Shown one piece after another: positions 8,643-46,786 of a DNA stretch of 51,676 nucleotides. Source of the stretch: an uncultured cyanobacterium. GTDB taxonomy: Bacteria; Cyanobacteriota; Cyanobacteriia; CACIAM-69d. The stretch's first letter is position 1. Each line of letters opens with the position of its first letter. The translations under genes and the position numbers were made by a program. The notes beneath the pieces were generated by a model. That model did not search any database. It saw only the letters and a list, made by a program, of their open reading frames with translations, and was not told the origin of the DNA. The stretch lies in assembly GCA_937883785.1 (NCBI GenBank), contig CALGDE010000159.1:1-51676 (forward strand), given 5' to 3'.

Positions 8643-9263
8643 TTAAGACTTAAAGAAAGCTGGACGGCGTACACTCTTCATCTCTGAAAGAGGATTTTTC
8701 TGAACGTATTCTTGCAGTTTATCTAAAGTCATCCAGCGCAGCTTTCCTCCCTCAGACTTCTTCAAAGAAAAAAGCTCTTCTCCTGTGGATTTTTTCGACA
8801 TTGTTGCGTTTGTTTTTATTCCCGAAATTCTACCTTCTTCGTCCAGATCGGCAAAATGGGGGTAATAGCATTTCATGTCGTCCAGAAACATAGAATGCCT
8901 AAAAGATAGCTCTTTGAACCTATGGCGCTGCGCATTCTGCCAAGGAATTTCGTGACGAATTAATTGTTCCAACTCTTCAGATGCAAAAGGTCCGTAATTG
9001 TCAACAACCAGGTCCAAGACCCATTTTTCTTCTGGCAACAATGAGATTGAGATTGACCTTAAATTGTTTAATATTTCTCGTGATTGAGGAATAGTTGGTC
9101 CACTGTCAGAAAATTGAAACTCTTGTTCAAAGACAGGGGTTCCGTAAGTTGCCAGGCTCCAAGCCTGCGCATAATAAAGAAGCTGCTGAACTTTGATCCT
9201 GTTTGGATTGAAGAATGTTGGGGTGCTTAGAAGGTGGAACTCGCACTCTAGAACTTTAGACAT
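8643..9263 (-). CDS. Panacea-domain (DUF4065, SocA/GepA-like) protein
   Basis: A 206-residue protein read from the ATG at 9263. Residues ~15-130 carry the hallmarks of the Panacea domain: NRIKVQQLLYYAQAWSLATYG, then the P-x-IPQ stretch and LDLVVDNYGPFASEEL with a following H-x2-PW. Panacea proteins are widespread antitoxins and proteolysis adaptors on phages and plasmids. The C-terminal 75 residues are basic and not part of that domain. The partner toxin, if any, is not obvious: the gene downstream is the PP-x-V-x2-YC protein and the divergent neighbour 46 nt away is a small unknown protein. Confidence 0.7.
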   Translation of the reverse strand: MSKVLECEFHLLSTPTFFNPNRIKVQQLLYYAQAWSLATYGTPVFEQEFQFSDSGPTIPQSREILNNLRSISISLLPEEKWVLDLVVDNYGPFASEELEQLIRHEIPWQNAQRHRFKELSFRHSMFLDDMKCYYPHFADLDEEGRISGIKTNATMSKKSTGEELFSLKKSEGGKLRWMTLDKLQEYVQKNPLSEMKSVRRPAFFKS

Positions 9264-9309
9264 GGATAGTTTGTATACTAGATAATCATTTATTTGTTGG
9301 AGGTTGATT

Positions 9310-9618
9310 ATGCCAGTGATGATGCAGGGTAAACCAGACGACGTTTCTGGCAAACTTAGCAATAATTATCAGTTGCTGTGGAGGATGCTTGATGCGGGTG
9401 AAACTGTTGTTGCTTGGGTTGGTGAATATTTATGGGACGAAAATCGTATCTTTGCCAAACCAGAATGGCAAAAAGTAGAAGCAAAAATAAATGATGGGCA
9501 CTTCATGTTTGGCTCGTCAGGAGTTAAGCAGGTAGCAAATATCGACAATCTTGAGCGCTATTACGAAAATTTTGGGATTTGGTTTGTTCCTTCAGAAGTA
9601 ACTCCTGAAGGTGGATAG
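9310..9618 (+). CDS. Unknown 102-residue protein divergent from the Panacea gene
   Basis: The ATG at 9310 is preceded by GGAGG with a 6-nt spacer, a strong ribosome-binding site. The product (MPVMMQGKPDDVSGK, then NNYQLLWRML) has a Trp-rich middle (VAWVGEYLWDENRIF, EWQKVEAKI). It has no membrane segment and no family I recognise. Only 46 nt separate its start from that of the Panacea gene, so the two share a regulatory region. It is therefore a candidate partner, which is inference only. Confidence 0.6.
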   Translation: MPVMMQGKPDDVSGKLSNNYQLLWRMLDAGETVVAWVGEYLWDENRIFAKPEWQKVEAKINDGHFMFGSSGVKQVANIDNLERYYENFGIWFVPSEVTPEGG

Positions 9619-39188: not shown

Positions 39189-41327
39189 ATGCCAGCCGTG
39201 CTTAGCAAAAGCCTTCAGACAGAAATTGTTCGCGCCGAAAATGATCCGAATTATGGGTTGTGGCAAGGCGGCTTTGCCCCCATGGAAGATCAAATTCTTG
39301 CGGGGCATTGGCGAGGAGATATTGTCCACTGGGTGGAACTCAGTATGGACACGGCGGTCTCTTCAGGGATGGACCGGCGCGTTAAAGGAGTTACGGCACG
39401 ACCATGGAAAGTAAAGCCTGACAGCGATCGCCCGGTAGACCGAGTCGCTGCATTTTTAGTTGAAGATGTCTTGCGGCGCTTACTATTCAACCGGTCCTGC
39501 GAACATCTTCTTTATGGAGCACTGCCAGGGACAGCAATTTGCGAGCTGATGTATGACCGGGCTCCTATTCAGTTACGGGCCGCAGAAGATCCTGACTCTC
39601 CAGAACTAATGCGCACTGTTAACGCAGTAGTTCTCAAAGATATTCGTCCAAGGGAAGCAAGGCGATTCACTTTTACCCTTAACCCGAAAAGAGGCGAAGC
39701 AGCAGTTGATGGATTTGGATTGCGACTCCTGACAAGAGATGCCCCAATTTTTGGGCGGCCGTTGAGCGATCGCAAATTTATTGTCCACACCTATGGATCT
39801 CAGTCTTCAACACCTTGGGGGATGGGATTAGCTCGAAAGCTAATCTACCCTGTCACCTGGAAAAAGGAGATTATCAAAGCCTCACTGGTTTATGCAGACA
39901 AATTTGCTCAGCCGGGGTTGGTCGGAACATTTGACCCAAGCAAATTAGCTCCCAGTGAAAATGCGGATGACGTTGTCGACGCTATTAAGGCTTACCTGAA
40001 ATCATTTCGGGAGGGCAGTGTTGCGGCCTACCCCAACAATATTGATATCAAAATGCTGGAGGCGCAGCGCAGTGGCACCACTGGCGTTTATGAATGGCTT
40101 CTGGCGTGGATTGACAAGCAAATTTCCGCAGTAATCCTTGGGGAAAGTTATGGGGCCGACGCTAATCAAGGGTTGTCTGGGGCTCCCAGCAAAGCAGATG
40201 GAGATATGCGGACGCAGATCAGCAAGGCTGACTCTGACTTGCTGACCGCCACACTCAATCGAACCGTTTGCAAGTGGTTGGTTGAGTTTAACCGCGACTT
40301 ATTGGGAGATGCGAATCCTCCGACCATTGAAAGGTCATTCGAGCCCATCGAGGACTTAAATGCTCGAATCTCTCGAGATGAAGCTCTTAATCGCTTGGGA
40401 TATCGCCTTCGATCTGACGCTGTTAGGCGTATTTACGGTGATGATTACGTTGATACGTCAGAGAAAGAACAGAGCAACCCCTTGATGTCCTGGCTCACTG
40501 GGGACGAGCCTGAAGTAGAAGCGGAAAAAGATCCGTCAACTAAACCAGAAGAATCCGCTCCTAGCGAAGAAGACTCTAAACGCCCAGTCACCGTCGAATC
40601 AAATTCCGATAACGAGGCAGAAGAGAAAAACCAATCCCTGGAGGAAACTAAATCCGTGGACGTTACCCCCCCAACACAATCAGGGGGTGACTCCCCAGAA
40701 ATGTCTGAACCTAATTCCTATCGAGTGGGGTACGGACATATTAATTTCACTCCCCCAGCGATCGCTCAGGAATCAGCACGCCGGGCGATCGCTGCTGACA
40801 TTGATAATCCATGGTTAGTTCCTGCGGATCTTGGCGACCCATTAGCACCCTCCCATGTAAAAACAATTGCTCAATGGTCCCCCGATTCTCCTATTAAAAC
40901 CCAGGAAGATTGGCAAGAAAACGATGGCTACCTGGGGGACGAAGGGCGCAACTGGAGCAAGCGAATCTGGCGACAAATGGAGGCTGCTGATGCTGCTTCT
41001 TCCCCGGCGATCGCCATGTCAGAAGGTGTTGGGATTCAGGGGAATGGAGAAATAACGGAACAAGGGGAAGGTAAAGTTGCGCTTCCCAGATCGATCGCTC
41101 AACGGCTGACCAAGGGGGAACGTTCCGCGCTGGCACGCGCATTTTCACCCCCTGAGACTCCTTTGAATATGGCAGAGCCATTAACTGTGGAAGGAGATGT
41201 TTTAGACGACGACGAATTTTCTTTTGAAATAAGCGAGCGAGACATCAGAGGAGCGATCGCCGACTGGATGGAAGATCCACCCACCAAAGCATCTAAGAAT
41301 GCTCTGAGAGGTGGAGGTGACGCCTAA
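39189..41327 (+). CDS. Portal protein (DUF935/Mu gp29-like)
   Basis: A 712-residue protein whose first ~410 residues match Mu gp29-type portals: MPAVLSKSLQTEIVRAENDP, the helix VHWVELSMDTAVSSG, TARPWKVKPDSD, EHLLYGALPGTAICELMYD, WGMGLARKLIYPVTWKKEIIK, and TTGVYEWLLAWIDKQISAVILGE. Residues ~420-510 are an acidic disordered linker (EVEAEKDPSTKPEESAPSEED), and the end is rich in Ala, Glu and Pro. It carries the DNA channel at the head vertex. It overlaps the tape measure gene by 1 nt, although portal and tape measure genes are seldom neighbours. Confidence 0.85.
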   Translation: MPAVLSKSLQTEIVRAENDPNYGLWQGGFAPMEDQILAGHWRGDIVHWVELSMDTAVSSGMDRRVKGVTARPWKVKPDSDRPVDRVAAFLVEDVLRRLLFNRSCEHLLYGALPGTAICELMYDRAPIQLRAAEDPDSPELMRTVNAVVLKDIRPREARRFTFTLNPKRGEAAVDGFGLRLLTRDAPIFGRPLSDRKFIVHTYGSQSSTPWGMGLARKLIYPVTWKKEIIKASLVYADKFAQPGLVGTFDPSKLAPSENADDVVDAIKAYLKSFREGSVAAYPNNIDIKMLEAQRSGTTGVYEWLLAWIDKQISAVILGESYGADANQGLSGAPSKADGDMRTQISKADSDLLTATLNRTVCKWLVEFNRDLLGDANPPTIERSFEPIEDLNARISRDEALNRLGYRLRSDAVRRIYGDDYVDTSEKEQSNPLMSWLTGDEPEVEAEKDPSTKPEESAPSEEDSKRPVTVESNSDNEAEEKNQSLEETKSVDVTPPTQSGGDSPEMSEPNSYRVGYGHINFTPPAIAQESARRAIAADIDNPWLVPADLGDPLAPSHVKTIAQWSPDSPIKTQEDWQENDGYLGDEGRNWSKRIWRQMEAADAASSPAIAMSEGVGIQGNGEITEQGEGKVALPRSIAQRLTKGERSALARAFSPPETPLNMAEPLTVEGDVLDDDEFSFEISERDIRGAIADWMEDPPTKASKNALRGGGDA

Positions 41328-44300
41328 TGGCATCCTTGAAATCGGATTTTACGGTCAAGTTATCGGTTTTAGCCTCCAACAAAACAGGGGCAGCATTTAA
41401 GGCGATCGCTGGGCAACTGGGCAAAACCATTAAAGGATTTACTCAGTTAAACACCAAAGCTGAAAAGACCAATGCCCTTCTAAGGGAAACGTCCACATTA
41501 TTGCCACCAATCATCCAGCGAATGGAGCAGATGGCAAACGTAGGACGTTCCGCCAGTGACTCCATGGCAATGGGGTTAAAGGATGCGGTGAAAGGCATGA
41601 AGCCCCCTAAGCCGCCTCGAATGGACGAGCCGTTCAAACAAGAGGGGCGGAAAGCTGGGGAATCTTTCGGCGATGGCGTTGGGGAGGGGGCTAGGCAATC
41701 CAACGCCAAATTTGGGGAAGTCGCCCGGTCGATCGCCACAAATTTTGGCGACATGCTGAAATTCCATATTGCCGGACGTGTTGTGGATTTTGGCATTGGC
41801 AAAATTCAAGAAGGATTTGCCGGGCTACGAAACGCTTTTGAGCAAGCAAAGGAATTACAACTTAGCGCCGTATCAAATGCATCGACACTGGAGCAACTGG
41901 CAAAAAACCTAGATTATTCAGGAGCAGAAAACGCACTAAACGGGCTAAATAAACGCCTAGCAAAAGCCGCCGCTGCATTGCCTGGCACCACGGCAGATTA
42001 TGTATCGATCGCCCAAGGAATTCAAGACAATATTGTTGAGGCTTACTCTGACCCTCAAGGGAACTTAAACGTAAAGGGATGGGAAGACGCCGCCAGTAAG
42101 CTCGCCACCATGTATGGCGTAATCCAAGCAAGTACACCTGGGGTTACGTCTGATGCTGTGGTCGCCACCTTAAGTAAAGCCATGGGCGGCACCAGCTCCA
42201 TGGCCGAAATGAAACAGCTTGACCTGTTCCAAAAGAATCCAGTCTTAATTTCCAAGTTAGAAGAGGCGATCAAAAAAGAAGGGGGCAAGGAACTAAAAGA
42301 TCTCACCATCGATAAGCGCATTGCGGCTTTAACCAATGCAGCAGAGGTGATGGCTTCCAAGGAGTTTCAAGAGCGAGCCGGGCAAACCGTTGAGGGATTG
42401 TCTCAAGGTTTTATTAGTTCAATCACTGACCCATCAACCGGATTGTTCGGATTATTCCGTGACCTGGACGAATCGACGGTCAAGGTGGAATCAGCTTTTG
42501 AGGCGATTAATGACATCTTTAAAACAGCCTTAGGAGAGGGCGGTTTATTTGGGTCTTTAGGGAGGCTAGGGAAGTCATTGTTTGGGTCGGTAGACCCGAT
42601 GAAAGTATTTCGATCTGGGCTAGAGCTGTTCAATAAAGCGTTGCAGTTCCTCAATGACCAGGTGAAGCTGATAAATCGGGGGCTCAAGGCGGTCACCGGA
42701 AAAATGAACGCTGGTCAGCAAATTTCGACAATTGCTGAAAACTGGGGCAAGTTTATTCCCTTAATTGGCAAATTTTTCAAAAACATTATGGTGCGGGTCC
42801 AAGCTGCAATCCCCGCCGCCCAAAAGTTTTTGTCCACAGCAATTACGACATTTTTTACCACTGGATTGCCCACTTTAATGAATGGATTATCTGGGTTAAT
42901 TGTGCAAGGCACCAACCTGGTCAGCGGGATGGCAACAGCAGTCGCCACAGTAATCCTCGGACTGGATTGGGACAAAATTTTGGCGGGGCTATGGAAAGGA
43001 TTAACCAAGGTTGATTGGCTACAGGCGGCCAATGCTTTCGGACGAATCATTTTAATGGCCACCTTGGCCTCTAAAACCATTGTTCTTGCTGGAGTAGCGG
43101 GGTCTTCCGCATTGGCCGCCGTCAAAGGAACATTGGTTTCGATGGTGGTCAGTGCTGGCACTTTTGGAGCATCCAAGCTGGCGGGGGGAATGAAAATTGC
43201 ATTTAGTGTGGCGGCAAAGGAAGCAGCTAAAACTGCTGCTGCATCTCCTTTGATGAAGGGATTGGGCAAGTTGACTTTGCCATTATTCGCTGCTGTCAAG
43301 GCTGGATTTCTTAAAAGTGCGGCTTTTGTTGCTCTGAAGTTTGGAGTCGTCACCAAGGGGATTGGGATGCTGGCGATCGCCACAAAAGGGGTGATTGTCA
43401 AATTTATAGGCGCCCCACTTATGGGGTTAATTTCCAAAATTGGGCTTTCTCTATCTGCTGCCCTTGGAAAATTACTGTTTGCCAGTGCCGCCGCTGGCGG
43501 GATTTTGGTTGCCGGTGCGGCGGCTTTCTACGGGACCCTCAAGTTAATGGGCAATGAGCACTTACTAGAAGAGTTGCCCCAGGCATTGGCAAATGTGGGC
43601 AGCTTACTAAAAGCGCAAATCAACCATATCTGGCAAGTGGGCGTCATTGAATTCAACAAAGCCAGGACCAGTTTTATTTCCTTCTATACCAACCTCCACG
43701 CTAATTTCACCAGAATTTGGGCTCAAGGAAAGCTAGCATTCATTTCAATTCGTGCCGCTGTCACTGGATTCTATGGAGGCATTGCTCAAGGGATTTCCAA
43801 TGTATGGAATATGGCATCCCAAAAAGCAGCGGAAATTCATGCTTTTGGACAATCTTTAATAGCAGCGGCGATCGCCAACTTTACATCCTTCTATTCGGGG
43901 TTGTTTGCTGCTGGAGTAACCCTCCTATCTCAAGCACAATCCGGTATTGCCACAATCCAAAGCGGTGTAACAGGGTTCTTCACTGGCATGTCTGAAGGAT
44001 TACAGATGATTTGGGGCTTTGTTAGCCAAAAATGGACTGAATTTACTCAGGTGGTAGAAACAGCAGCCTCCCCAATTGTGGTGTTAATAACCAGCTTCTT
44101 TCAAGGGATTCAAAATATATTTTCCCAGGCGAAGCAAGCATTATCTTCAATCGCCAATCCAATTTCTATGATCACGGGCAATACCGCTGCCCCAGTTATG
44201 GCAACACCAGCGGCGGGGGCGATTGCCACAGCAACGAGCGGTTCCACTACTGAATCAAAGGGCGACCAGAGTAAATCTGCCACGGTTGCCACTACGCCAT

Positions 44301-44695
44301 CATCTACCAACGCGGGGTCTGTCAGTGGTTTCGCTGCCGTCACCCAGGCGGCCAGTCAAAAGATCAAGGGCGCCACTGCTTCATTCTCTGGGGCGATTCC
44401 ACGAATGGAAGGAATCTTCGGGGCGATCGCCAATGAATCCATGAATAAACCAGCAGGTTCCAGCTTGGTGGTAGCGAACAGCAGTGAAGCTGTACTACGT
44501 CCCGAGCAATTAAAGTCAATAATGGCCAGCTCTGCCAACGCCGGAGCCAACGGAGTTGCAAGCCAAGGGGGCATCAACCTGGGAGGCGTCACAATCAACA
44601 TTTCCGGCGTTGAAAACCCGAAAGCGATCGCTCAGCAAGTTATTGCAGAAATTGAAGCTCAACTAAGAGCCCATCAAGGAGGAATGCTGGCATAG
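41327..44695 (+). CDS. Tail tape measure protein
   Basis: A 1122-residue protein with the usual signs of a tape measure: an Ala-, Gly- and Ser-rich helix-rich sequence, a central block of hydrophobic segments (residues ~550-760, e.g. FGRIILMATLASKTIVLAGVAGSSALAA), and repeat-like spacing of FYSGLFAAG and FYGGIAQG. The end is Gly/Ser-rich with SSLVVANSSEAVLRPEQLKSI, and INISGV-type ends are typical. Tail length is set by it. Normally preceded by its chaperones; here they are 25 kb away on the other strand. ATG overlaps the portal stop. Confidence 0.85.
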   Translation: MASLKSDFTVKLSVLASNKTGAAFKAIAGQLGKTIKGFTQLNTKAEKTNALLRETSTLLPPIIQRMEQMANVGRSASDSMAMGLKDAVKGMKPPKPPRMDEPFKQEGRKAGESFGDGVGEGARQSNAKFGEVARSIATNFGDMLKFHIAGRVVDFGIGKIQEGFAGLRNAFEQAKELQLSAVSNASTLEQLAKNLDYSGAENALNGLNKRLAKAAAALPGTTADYVSIAQGIQDNIVEAYSDPQGNLNVKGWEDAASKLATMYGVIQASTPGVTSDAVVATLSKAMGGTSSMAEMKQLDLFQKNPVLISKLEEAIKKEGGKELKDLTIDKRIAALTNAAEVMASKEFQERAGQTVEGLSQGFISSITDPSTGLFGLFRDLDESTVKVESAFEAINDIFKTALGEGGLFGSLGRLGKSLFGSVDPMKVFRSGLELFNKALQFLNDQVKLINRGLKAVTGKMNAGQQISTIAENWGKFIPLIGKFFKNIMVRVQAAIPAAQKFLSTAITTFFTTGLPTLMNGLSGLIVQGTNLVSGMATAVATVILGLDWDKILAGLWKGLTKVDWLQAANAFGRIILMATLASKTIVLAGVAGSSALAAVKGTLVSMVVSAGTFGASKLAGGMKIAFSVAAKEAAKTAAASPLMKGLGKLTLPLFAAVKAGFLKSAAFVALKFGVVTKGIGMLAIATKGVIVKFIGAPLMGLISKIGLSLSAALGKLLFASAAAGGILVAGAAAFYGTLKLMGNEHLLEELPQALANVGSLLKAQINHIWQVGVIEFNKARTSFISFYTNLHANFTRIWAQGKLAFISIRAAVTGFYGGIAQGISNVWNMASQKAAEIHAFGQSLIAAAIANFTSFYSGLFAAGVTLLSQAQSGIATIQSGVTGFFTGMSEGLQMIWGFVSQKWTEFTQVVETAASPIVVLITSFFQGIQNIFSQAKQALSSIANPISMITGNTAAPVMATPAAGAIATATSGSTTESKGDQSKSATVATTPSSTNAGSVSGFAAVTQAASQKIKGATASFSGAIPRMEGIFGAIANESMNKPAGSSLVVANSSEAVLRPEQLKSIMASSANAGANGVASQGGINLGGVTINISGVENPKAIAQQVIAEIEAQLRAHQGGMLA

Positions 44696-44772: not shown

Positions 44773-45192
44773 TTACTCATCCTGGGAATGGGGGAATTGA
44801 CGGAGGGCAGTCATTAACTGCCCTGAGGAAGGATCAAATCTCCTGAATAGCAAGCGGGTTAGCCCGGAAAATGTTGTCCCGACAGCATCAGCGGAATGCA
44901 ATGCCCAAGCATACTCAGGCGGAGAGAGGTAAATCTTGCGAGGCAGTGTTGAATTAGTGCGAGCACTAGATCGATGCCCTCGTTTTTTTTTGACTCCCTT
45001 GCCAAAGCTAATCCTATCTAAAGTGGCAACGCCAACAGGGAAGCGCATCAAGCGGTCTTCACCGGCGTTATATCGCAATAGCATCCACCGCCCCATTCCA
45101 GAAAAAGTGCGTCCCTGGGACTTGGAAACCTGTTGAGCCCAAGCATATTCAGCTTCGGCCATGTAGACCTTTCGTAGGGTTCGCTTTGACAT
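44773..45192 (-). CDS. Tandem ribbon-helix-helix protein
   Basis: A 139-residue protein with two repeats of ~35 residues: LRKVYMAEAEYAWAQQVSKSQ, TFSGMGRWMLLR (residues ~5-42) and LPRKIYLSPPEYAWALHSADA, TFSGLTRLLFRR (~85-122). The -EYAWA- and -TFSG- pairs prove an internal duplication. Each unit fits a ribbon-helix-helix. A relative is encoded at 9625-9993. Element upstream at 45242-45255. It converges on the tape measure gene. Likely a transcription factor of the phage regulon. Confidence 0.65.
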   Translation of the reverse strand: MSKRTLRKVYMAEAEYAWAQQVSKSQGRTFSGMGRWMLLRYNAGEDRLMRFPVGVATLDRISFGKGVKKKRGHRSSARTNSTLPRKIYLSPPEYAWALHSADAVGTTFSGLTRLLFRRFDPSSGQLMTALRQFPHSQDE

Positions 45193-45241: not shown

Positions 45242-45258
45242 CTTTAAGGCTTGCCCCA
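45242..45258 (-). promoter_or_regulatory. GGGCAAGCCTTAAAG element upstream of the tandem-RHH gene
   Basis: Minus strand CATGGGGCAAGCCTTAA, with core GGCAAGCCTTA, 49 nt before the start of the RHH gene. It overlaps the ATG of the divergent pseudo-receiver gene, so it may also influence that gene. Confidence 0.6.
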
Positions 45259-46049
45259 TGAAAATCCAAAAACTCAATGGACTGGAGACTGAGTTTTATC
45301 GAGTTCTAGTAATTGAAAACGTCGATCTTGATTTCGATGTAATTGAAGAGCTTTTTGACAAAACCAGCTTTAGCGTCCCCCTCGAGGGGGAATCTATCAG
45401 TGCTCGACGGTTTCGAGTAGACCGTGTGGAGTCAGTGCAGGAAGGAGTCGTAGAACTTAAAAACCCTGCATCCACTTACGATGCTGTTTTGGTCAGCACC
45501 AAAGTTCCTGACAATGACGGGGTACGGGCAATTCGCCTGCTCACTCAGCTTGCTGGGTTTGCCCCTGTTCTACCGCTGGTAAATATTGGCGATGAAGAAA
45601 CAGATGTCAAAAAGGCGCTCCGAAATGGAGCGATCAGCTTTCTGTCGAAATCGGTGATTCTCGCTCGAGGTGCCCAGTATCTAACTCGGGCTATTTTGCA
45701 AGCGATCGCCGCAAAAGAAGGGCGTGAATTGGATGTTGATGAAGGTAATCATCGACTGCTTCGGAATGTTCGATTTAAGCGTGTATTCTTCTGCGCCGTT
45801 GTCGCTGGTTTTATCTTCGTCGGGCAACCATCCTACATGTCCAAGCGGTTTGCGTGGGATCTAAGTCAAGGGCGTCGTGAACTGACGTTTGTGATCTGTA
45901 CTCTTGCCTGGAGCGGTAAAGCTATGTCAATCCTTCAGGTATACAGAGAGCGCCGCCGCCGTACCAAATACTTTGCACAGCAGAAGGCGATCGCCCAAGA
46001 ACGCCTTCGCAAGCCTAAGCAGAAAAAAGTCGCTCCTATCGCCAAATAG
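45258..46049 (+). CDS. Pseudo-receiver-domain protein with basic, partly hydrophobic C-terminus
   Basis: A 263-residue protein. Residues ~15-150 follow the order of a response-regulator receiver: YRVLVIENVDLDFDVIEEL, YDAVLVSTKVPDNDGVRAIRLL, PVLPLVNIGDEE, NGAISFLSKS. The phosphoacceptor Asp is Ser (VLVSTKVPDNDG) and the Thr/Ser site is Asn. A Lys is kept. This makes it a pseudo-receiver, as in some cyanobacterial clock proteins. Residues ~175-215 contain two short hydrophobic segments, and the tail is Lys/Arg-rich. It is only 2 nt from the following lipase-like gene. Phosphorylation-independent signalling or docking is likely. Confidence 0.6.
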   Translation: MKIQKLNGLETEFYRVLVIENVDLDFDVIEELFDKTSFSVPLEGESISARRFRVDRVESVQEGVVELKNPASTYDAVLVSTKVPDNDGVRAIRLLTQLAGFAPVLPLVNIGDEETDVKKALRNGAISFLSKSVILARGAQYLTRAILQAIAAKEGRELDVDEGNHRLLRNVRFKRVFFCAVVAGFIFVGQPSYMSKRFAWDLSQGRRELTFVICTLAWSGKAMSILQVYRERRRRTKYFAQQKAIAQERLRKPKQKKVAPIAK

Positions 46050-46051
46050 CC

Positions 46052-46786
46052 ATGAAACTGCAACAGAACATCTTTGAAGCCCAAACTCAAATCCAACGCC
46101 TTGAGGTTTTAGCGAAGCGGGTTGCTTATCTAAATCGCAAAGATCTTGGGATGGGGGAATGGCAGCGATGGCTGCACTTTGCTCAGCTCAATCTGATCGG
46201 ATGTATCGACCATTTTGCTGGTACTTTTGCCTGGATCTTCCAATGGGGAGACGAAATTGTGATCTGCTTCCGTGGGTCAAAGCAACCGATTGGAGCAGCC
46301 CTAGACACCCGAAGTGAGCAAGAGCGCACTTTTCAATACGAAATAGCACGCTCTGAGATTATTTCTTGGTTAGGGCATCGCCCTGTCGTCTGCGTCGGAC
46401 ATGGGTTGGGAGGGGCGATCGCCCAACGAGCCGCCCACGACTACAGTCCGTGGGTCTCCAAATGTTTTACTTTCAGCGCCACTGGAGTTCCGACTTATTA
46501 CGACGGAAGTCGCAGCGGCAATACTGAGGTAGAACACTATGTAATCTTGGGCGACCCAGCATCTCGACTGGGAGATGTGTTCATTTCTGGATGGATTCAG
46601 GCTTCTGAACTGATCGTCGATGACGATGACGATTTACTGGAAATGTCGACCCGCTTAGCGCTACTACCTCGGCAAACTGCCTATTCAGAAGTCCTTTCTC
46701 CAGAGAGGTGGGAATCTATGCGGCGATCGCCATCTCTCTCCCAGGTCCCCCTGCCGTCCAATGCTTGTGTTGCCCAGGATGAATAG
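46052..46786 (+). CDS. Class-3-lipase-like protein without the nucleophile serine
   Basis: A 244-residue protein with the alpha/beta-hydrolase series of class 3 lipases: DEIVICFRGSKQP, PVVCVGHGLGGAIAQRAA, VSKCFTFSATGVPTYY and HYVILGDPASRLGDVF. In active lipases the elbow is GHSLG. Here it is GHGLG, so the catalytic Ser is replaced by Gly, while the Asp of GDPASRLG remains. It is probably a pseudo-hydrolase or binding protein. It is encoded 2 nt after the pseudo-receiver, so two catalytic folds that have lost a key residue are paired in one operon. Confidence 0.65.
   Translation: MKLQQNIFEAQTQIQRLEVLAKRVAYLNRKDLGMGEWQRWLHFAQLNLIGCIDHFAGTFAWIFQWGDEIVICFRGSKQPIGAALDTRSEQERTFQYEIARSEIISWLGHRPVVCVGHGLGGAIAQRAAHDYSPWVSKCFTFSATGVPTYYDGSRSGNTEVEHYVILGDPASRLGDVFISGWIQASELIVDDDDDLLEMSTRLALLPRQTAYSEVLSPERWESMRRSPSLSQVPLPSNACVAQDE

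Follow-up and report, generated by a model that had tools for sequence, protein, structure and literature searches.

The window analysed here, 51,676 bases in length, is a whole contig (C159) of a 4.84-Mb genome in 167 contigs, which appears to be cyanobacterial judging from its relatives and its GCGATCGC-rich sequence. Because it carries genes for a Mu-type portal (39189–41327, plus strand; Portal_Mu E=3e-64), a terminase large subunit, a head maturation protease, baseplate J, tail proteins and a tape-measure-like protein (41327–44695, plus strand), C159 is a phage or prophage element. No terminal repeat was found on the contig. Two open reading frames on the plus strand lie at 45258–46049 (gene 1; protein P0001, 263 aa) and 46052–46786 (gene 2; protein P0002, 244 aa) and are separated by exactly 2 nt, as originally predicted. 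Their frame-1 codon statistics were like those of the structural genes, and the structural genes around the pair are intact.

The pair had been described as following the tape measure and a tandem RHH gene. It does lie downstream of the tape-measure gene but does not form one operon with it, and the supposed RHH gene (44773–45192) is on the minus strand and is transcribed divergently from the pair. No Pfam or PHROG model matched its 139-aa product, whose internal repeat was visible by eye only; this product is possibly a local regulator. Hits in scans for promoters and terminators stayed within chance expectation. When syntenic relatives of the C159 phage were sought, only distant Mu-type portals (25–36% identity) were found, in 10 other genomes, and inspection by eye of the reading frames around one of them (L059) revealed no receiver/lipase pair. 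In the same Mu-type prophage region, three adjoining portal/MuF-like proteins (L059 near 6357, 10047 and 11669, minus strand) share the cysteine motif C.KG.SCG..CI, which occurs once in another genome (L061 near 13786, plus strand) and is absent from the window.

A pseudo-receiver with a predicted membrane hairpin

Residues 1–160 of the gene 1 product are receiver-like and are followed by hydrophobic segments at about 171–194 and 208–229 and by a basic C-terminal tail. The match to Pfam Response_reg (PF00072) had an E-value of 8.3e-6 (26.4 bits, just below the gathering cut-off of 30.2), and that to receivers in the PDB an E-value of 2.8e-5. A two-member profile of gene 1 and its paralogue P0003, described below, matched SLN1 receivers over residues 16–138 (E=3.4e-5). 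Among the closest sequences were receivers at the N-termini of hybrid histidine kinases from cyanobacteria (L011, L017), which align from beta1 to alpha5 with 24–36% identity. These receivers keep the phosphoacceptor Asp and are fused to a kinase, whereas gene 1 lacks a kinase and carries 11 inserted residues between alpha1 and beta2.

Gene 1 was aligned with 13 cyanobacterial receivers of the same class. At the phosphoacceptor position, at the end of beta3, all 13 had Asp, whereas P0001 had Ser80 (codon AGC, 45495–45497, plus strand; YDAVLVSTKVPDNDG) and P0003 had Ser81. The predicted replacement of Asp by Ser was thus borne out, and two further active-site positions of P0001 were altered: the acidic pair is E20-N21 and the conserved Thr is V108, with the Lys kept (K131). 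The corresponding positions of P0003 are E-G, T and M. Gene 1 therefore lacks both the phosphoacceptor Asp and the complete set of acidic pair, Thr/Ser and Lys expected of a receiver domain (PF00072), and it agrees with the definition of a pseudo-receiver as a receiver-related domain without key phosphotransfer residues (PMC12632262).

Both proteins have a transmembrane-like segment, called from hydropathy peaks of modest height: the best 19-residue mean was 1.7 for gene 1 and 2.0 for P0003, and the second segment of gene 1 reached 1.27. The two segments and the basic tail suggest a membrane hairpin with both ends cytoplasmic. Gene 1 encodes a divergent receiver domain plus a probable transmembrane hairpin. 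The single-sequence AlphaFold models of the pair (pLDDT 43–44) were too poor for conclusions on fold. That of gene 1 (pLDDT 43) gave no convincing receiver match, and its matches to small GTPases were disregarded for the same low confidence.

Pseudo-receivers are common, and bacterial ones act through protein-protein contacts, with a mode of action that is largely unknown (PMC12632262); such contacts are the closest precedent for the action of a domain like gene 1. Like FrzS, the second receiver of PleD and NblR (PMC12632262), gene 1 is without the phosphoacceptor Asp and further residues of the active site, while the Lys and one acidic residue are kept. It differs from these proteins in that a transmembrane hairpin replaces the output domain, in being phage-borne and in being paired with a dead hydrolase. 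No paper mentioning "pseudo-receiver" together with "prophage" was found in the full text of open-licence PubMed Central.

A lipase-fold protein without the catalytic Ser and His

Gene 2 belongs to a cyanobacterial class-3-lipase/RTX-lipase family. Relatives were found in 24 cyanobacterial genomes besides its own, among 390 (best E=1.6e-10); the match to Abhydrolase_6 (E=1.8e-4) was under the curated cut-off, and Foldseek searches with the low-confidence model gave fungal class-3 lipases as the best hits (E=1.3e-3). In an alignment of gene 2 with 25 sequences, the nucleophile column was occupied by Ser in 22 relatives and by Gly or Asp in one each, and one relative was gapped there. At this position gene 2 carries Gly118 (codon GGG, 46403–46405, plus strand) within VGHGLGG, which confirms the predicted change from GHSLG to GHGLG. 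The loss was larger than had been noted: Asp168 is kept, and the triad His, found at one column in 20 relatives, is gone as well (the last His of the protein is H162), so that two of the three catalytic residues are missing. By these residues gene 2, which retains the family homology and the nucleophile-elbow region without the Ser of GxSxG or the complete Asp and His set, would be a lipase relative and not a lipase.

The fold motifs FRGS, GHxLGGAIAQ and HYVxxGDPxSxxGxxFIxG are kept, and the frame is intact over 244 codons. The elbow GHxLGGxxAQ, the motif HYxxxGDxxSxxGxxFxxG and the catalytic Asp position are common to gene 2 and the class-3-lipase-like/RTX-lipase proteins L002, L065 and L071, from which it differs in lacking the Ser, the His and the RTX repeats and in its length (244 aa, versus about 450–500 aa for most of them). 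After about residue 183, the C-terminal part could not be aligned with relatives. On a 2.75-Mb contig, another genome of the class encodes a 454-aa RTX-lipase homologue of gene 2 (L069, G340:C6; equal to L082:4841–6205, plus strand), an intact protein in which, independently, Ser has become Gly (GHGMGG) and the DKH/NNH site reads NKN (His to Asn). By its residues, L069 is a precedent for a non-catalytic member of this lipase family. The plant lipase-like proteins EDS1 and SAG101 have a non-catalytic lipase fold and work in partnership. They appeared only as weak Foldseek matches of the low-confidence model of gene 2 (rank 29 and below), with no sequence relationship shown.

Assembly or read error was ruled out as the cause of the substitutions in both genes, because each needs two base changes (AGC versus GAY for gene 1; GGG versus AGY/TCN for gene 2). 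Recent decay was the other cause considered, with homologues retaining intact residues as its expected sign. Such homologues exist at a distance for both genes: the receivers all have Asp, and Ser is present in 22 of the 24 lipase relatives with a residue at the column (Gly and Asp in the others). As distant lipase relatives keep Ser, the gene 2 substitution taken alone could still be decay. Because gene 2 is without a close (in-clade) homologue, its loss may be functional or may be decay.

The paralogue on a second phage and its EAL-domain partner

A paralogue of gene 1, P0003, was found in the same genome on contig C14 (E=2.7e-23 and 1.7e-23; the match is reciprocal). The two proteins have in common the N-terminal MK..LNG.LE.E.Y, the 11-residue insertion, FRVDR, the Asp-to-Ser replacement and a hydrophobic segment towards the C terminus. 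Over the receiver they are 33.5% identical in amino acids (53 identical residues versus a maximum of 27 in shuffled sequences), with codon-position identities of 0.49/0.60/0.34; conservation is poor (19%) in the C-terminal regions. By this comparison, the protein is conserved while synonymous third positions neared saturation. Since P0003 keeps the Ser, an open frame and the transmembrane segment at near-saturated third positions, recent decay of gene 1, the doubt raised in the original prediction, is unlikely. The change from Asp to Ser is, on the same comparison, old and maintained.

C14 is a 78-kb, phage-like contig with a terminase of a family other than that of C159, a 1922-aa tape measure, a DnaB helicase and a recombination directionality factor, and it appears to represent a second, unrelated phage. 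Apart from the paralogues, C14 and C159 have only a few small genes in common, among them Panacea/SocA-antitoxin-like genes (8643–9362 of the window and L042:12952–13467, both minus strand; PHROG 1281, with Pfam Panacea for the window copy). No counterpart of the divergent 44773–45192 gene was found when C14 was searched for one. P0003 is on the strand opposite to the adjoining terminase, and its stop overlaps by 8 nt the start of an EAL-domain gene (L035:6213–6935, plus strand; Pfam EAL E=5e-30). The 2-nt gap on C159 and the 8-nt overlap on C14 are both spacings of translational coupling. The EAL-domain gene in turn adjoins a GGDEF-EAL gene on the opposite strand.

The EAL-domain positions that we checked have catalytic roles in the family. 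In the C14 protein one metal-site Asp is replaced by Thr (DDFGTG to TDHEVG), and no change was apparent at the EAL, Asn, Lys, Glu and Gln positions. This protein may be inactive, less clearly so than gene 2, as only one checked catalytic position is lost.

The neighbour of P0003 is thus not a lipase, and a further pseudo-receiver/lipase pair did not turn up in any search; a conserved receiver-lipase module with fixed pairing, as the original prediction had implied, was ruled out by the EAL partner. The partner gene downstream of the adaptor is exchangeable. Because P0003 keeps the Ser but adjoins an EAL gene and not a lipase gene, the receiver loss is read as old and maintained and the partner as exchangeable.

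Only two members of the adaptor family are known, gene 1 and P0003. With P0003 as the query, no match was found in any other of the 390 genomes of the class; the search with gene 1 that found P0003 scored at most six candidates per genome and would, taken alone, be compatible with further members. For the pair, no close relatives were obtained from viral_contigs (searched with P0001, P0002, A1, P0003 and the portal) or from phage and plasmid collections (tblastn with P0001 and P0002), and genome_contigs gave only a single distant receiver-like match.

Proposed function and alternative explanations

Because a signalling domain without its phosphate site adjoins damaged or damaged-looking enzymes in two phages, the likely mode of action of these proteins is binding and not catalysis, and the role in host signalling or exclusion by binding that was first suggested for the pair is plausible. 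We tentatively propose, as quite possible, that the pair is a phage accessory (moron-type) two-gene module of a membrane-anchored receiver-like adaptor and a binding-only partner, aimed at a host two-component system. Gene 1 would be an adaptor independent of phosphorylation, and its docking site on the host two-component system would be the DHp domain of a kinase or the output partner of a receiver. Gene 2, made in step with gene 1, would be a catalytically dead protein of alpha/beta-hydrolase fold that interacts with gene 1 and works by binding, and the adaptor would deliver it to the host signalling component, to the benefit of the lysogen or the phage. An adaptor of the same type would act with the EAL-domain protein of altered metal site in the host's second phage. 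A wider form of this proposal, in which the pseudo-receiver is a docking platform for exchangeable 'dead enzymes' (lipase, EAL) in a modular phage system that rewires host two-component/c-di-GMP signalling in lysogeny, we regard as unlikely.

It is also conceivable, though somewhat unlikely, that gene 1 alone is a functional adaptor or decoy and that gene 2 is a decaying fragment of a host-derived lipase, picked up by chance and doing no joint work with gene 1. The relatives of gene 2 mostly have the His as well as the Ser and are often larger proteins of RTX or other types (450–650 aa), the end of gene 2 cannot be aligned with them, and the paralogous locus on C14 has another partner. Decay is harder to reconcile with an intact 244-codon frame, gene-like codon statistics and tight spacing, or with the loss of two catalytic residues while the fold motifs are kept.

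Superinfection exclusion or another anti-phage function, in which the membrane protein and its soluble partner block competing phages at the envelope, is improbable. The prophage-like context, the probable own transcription (opposite to the neighbours in C14), the hairpin with its basic tail and the presence of module variants in two phages of one genome are consistent with it, whereas PADLOC models gave no match to the five proteins compared and a receiver-derived domain with EAL or lipase partners points to host signalling. That both genes are neutral passengers of an abandoned prophage seems quite improbable: module homologues were found only within their own genome and catalytic residues are lost in both genes, but the protein sequence of gene 1 and P0003 was kept at near-saturated third positions and the adjoining structural genes are intact.

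Repurposed phosphate or ligand chemistry, with gene 1 acting like a cRec domain and gene 2 on a ligand by another route, is hardly credible, since the divergent receivers of jumbo phages to which gene 1 would be likened, and which are linked in operons to NAD/ADPr or RNA-repair enzymes, keep the catalytic Asp (PMC7824862), whereas gene 1 has Ser80 and an incomplete metal site and no such enzyme was seen in its immediate neighbourhood. By its residues gene 1 would be classed as a pseudo-receiver, neither an ordinary receiver nor a cRec.

Together with its tightly linked partner, a phage-borne, membrane-tethered pseudo-receiver forms a small two-protein system in which both the partner and the target could be found directly. 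The occurrence of the same adaptor beside different damaged enzymes in two unrelated phages of one host suggests that phages may swap dead signalling folds as binding parts.
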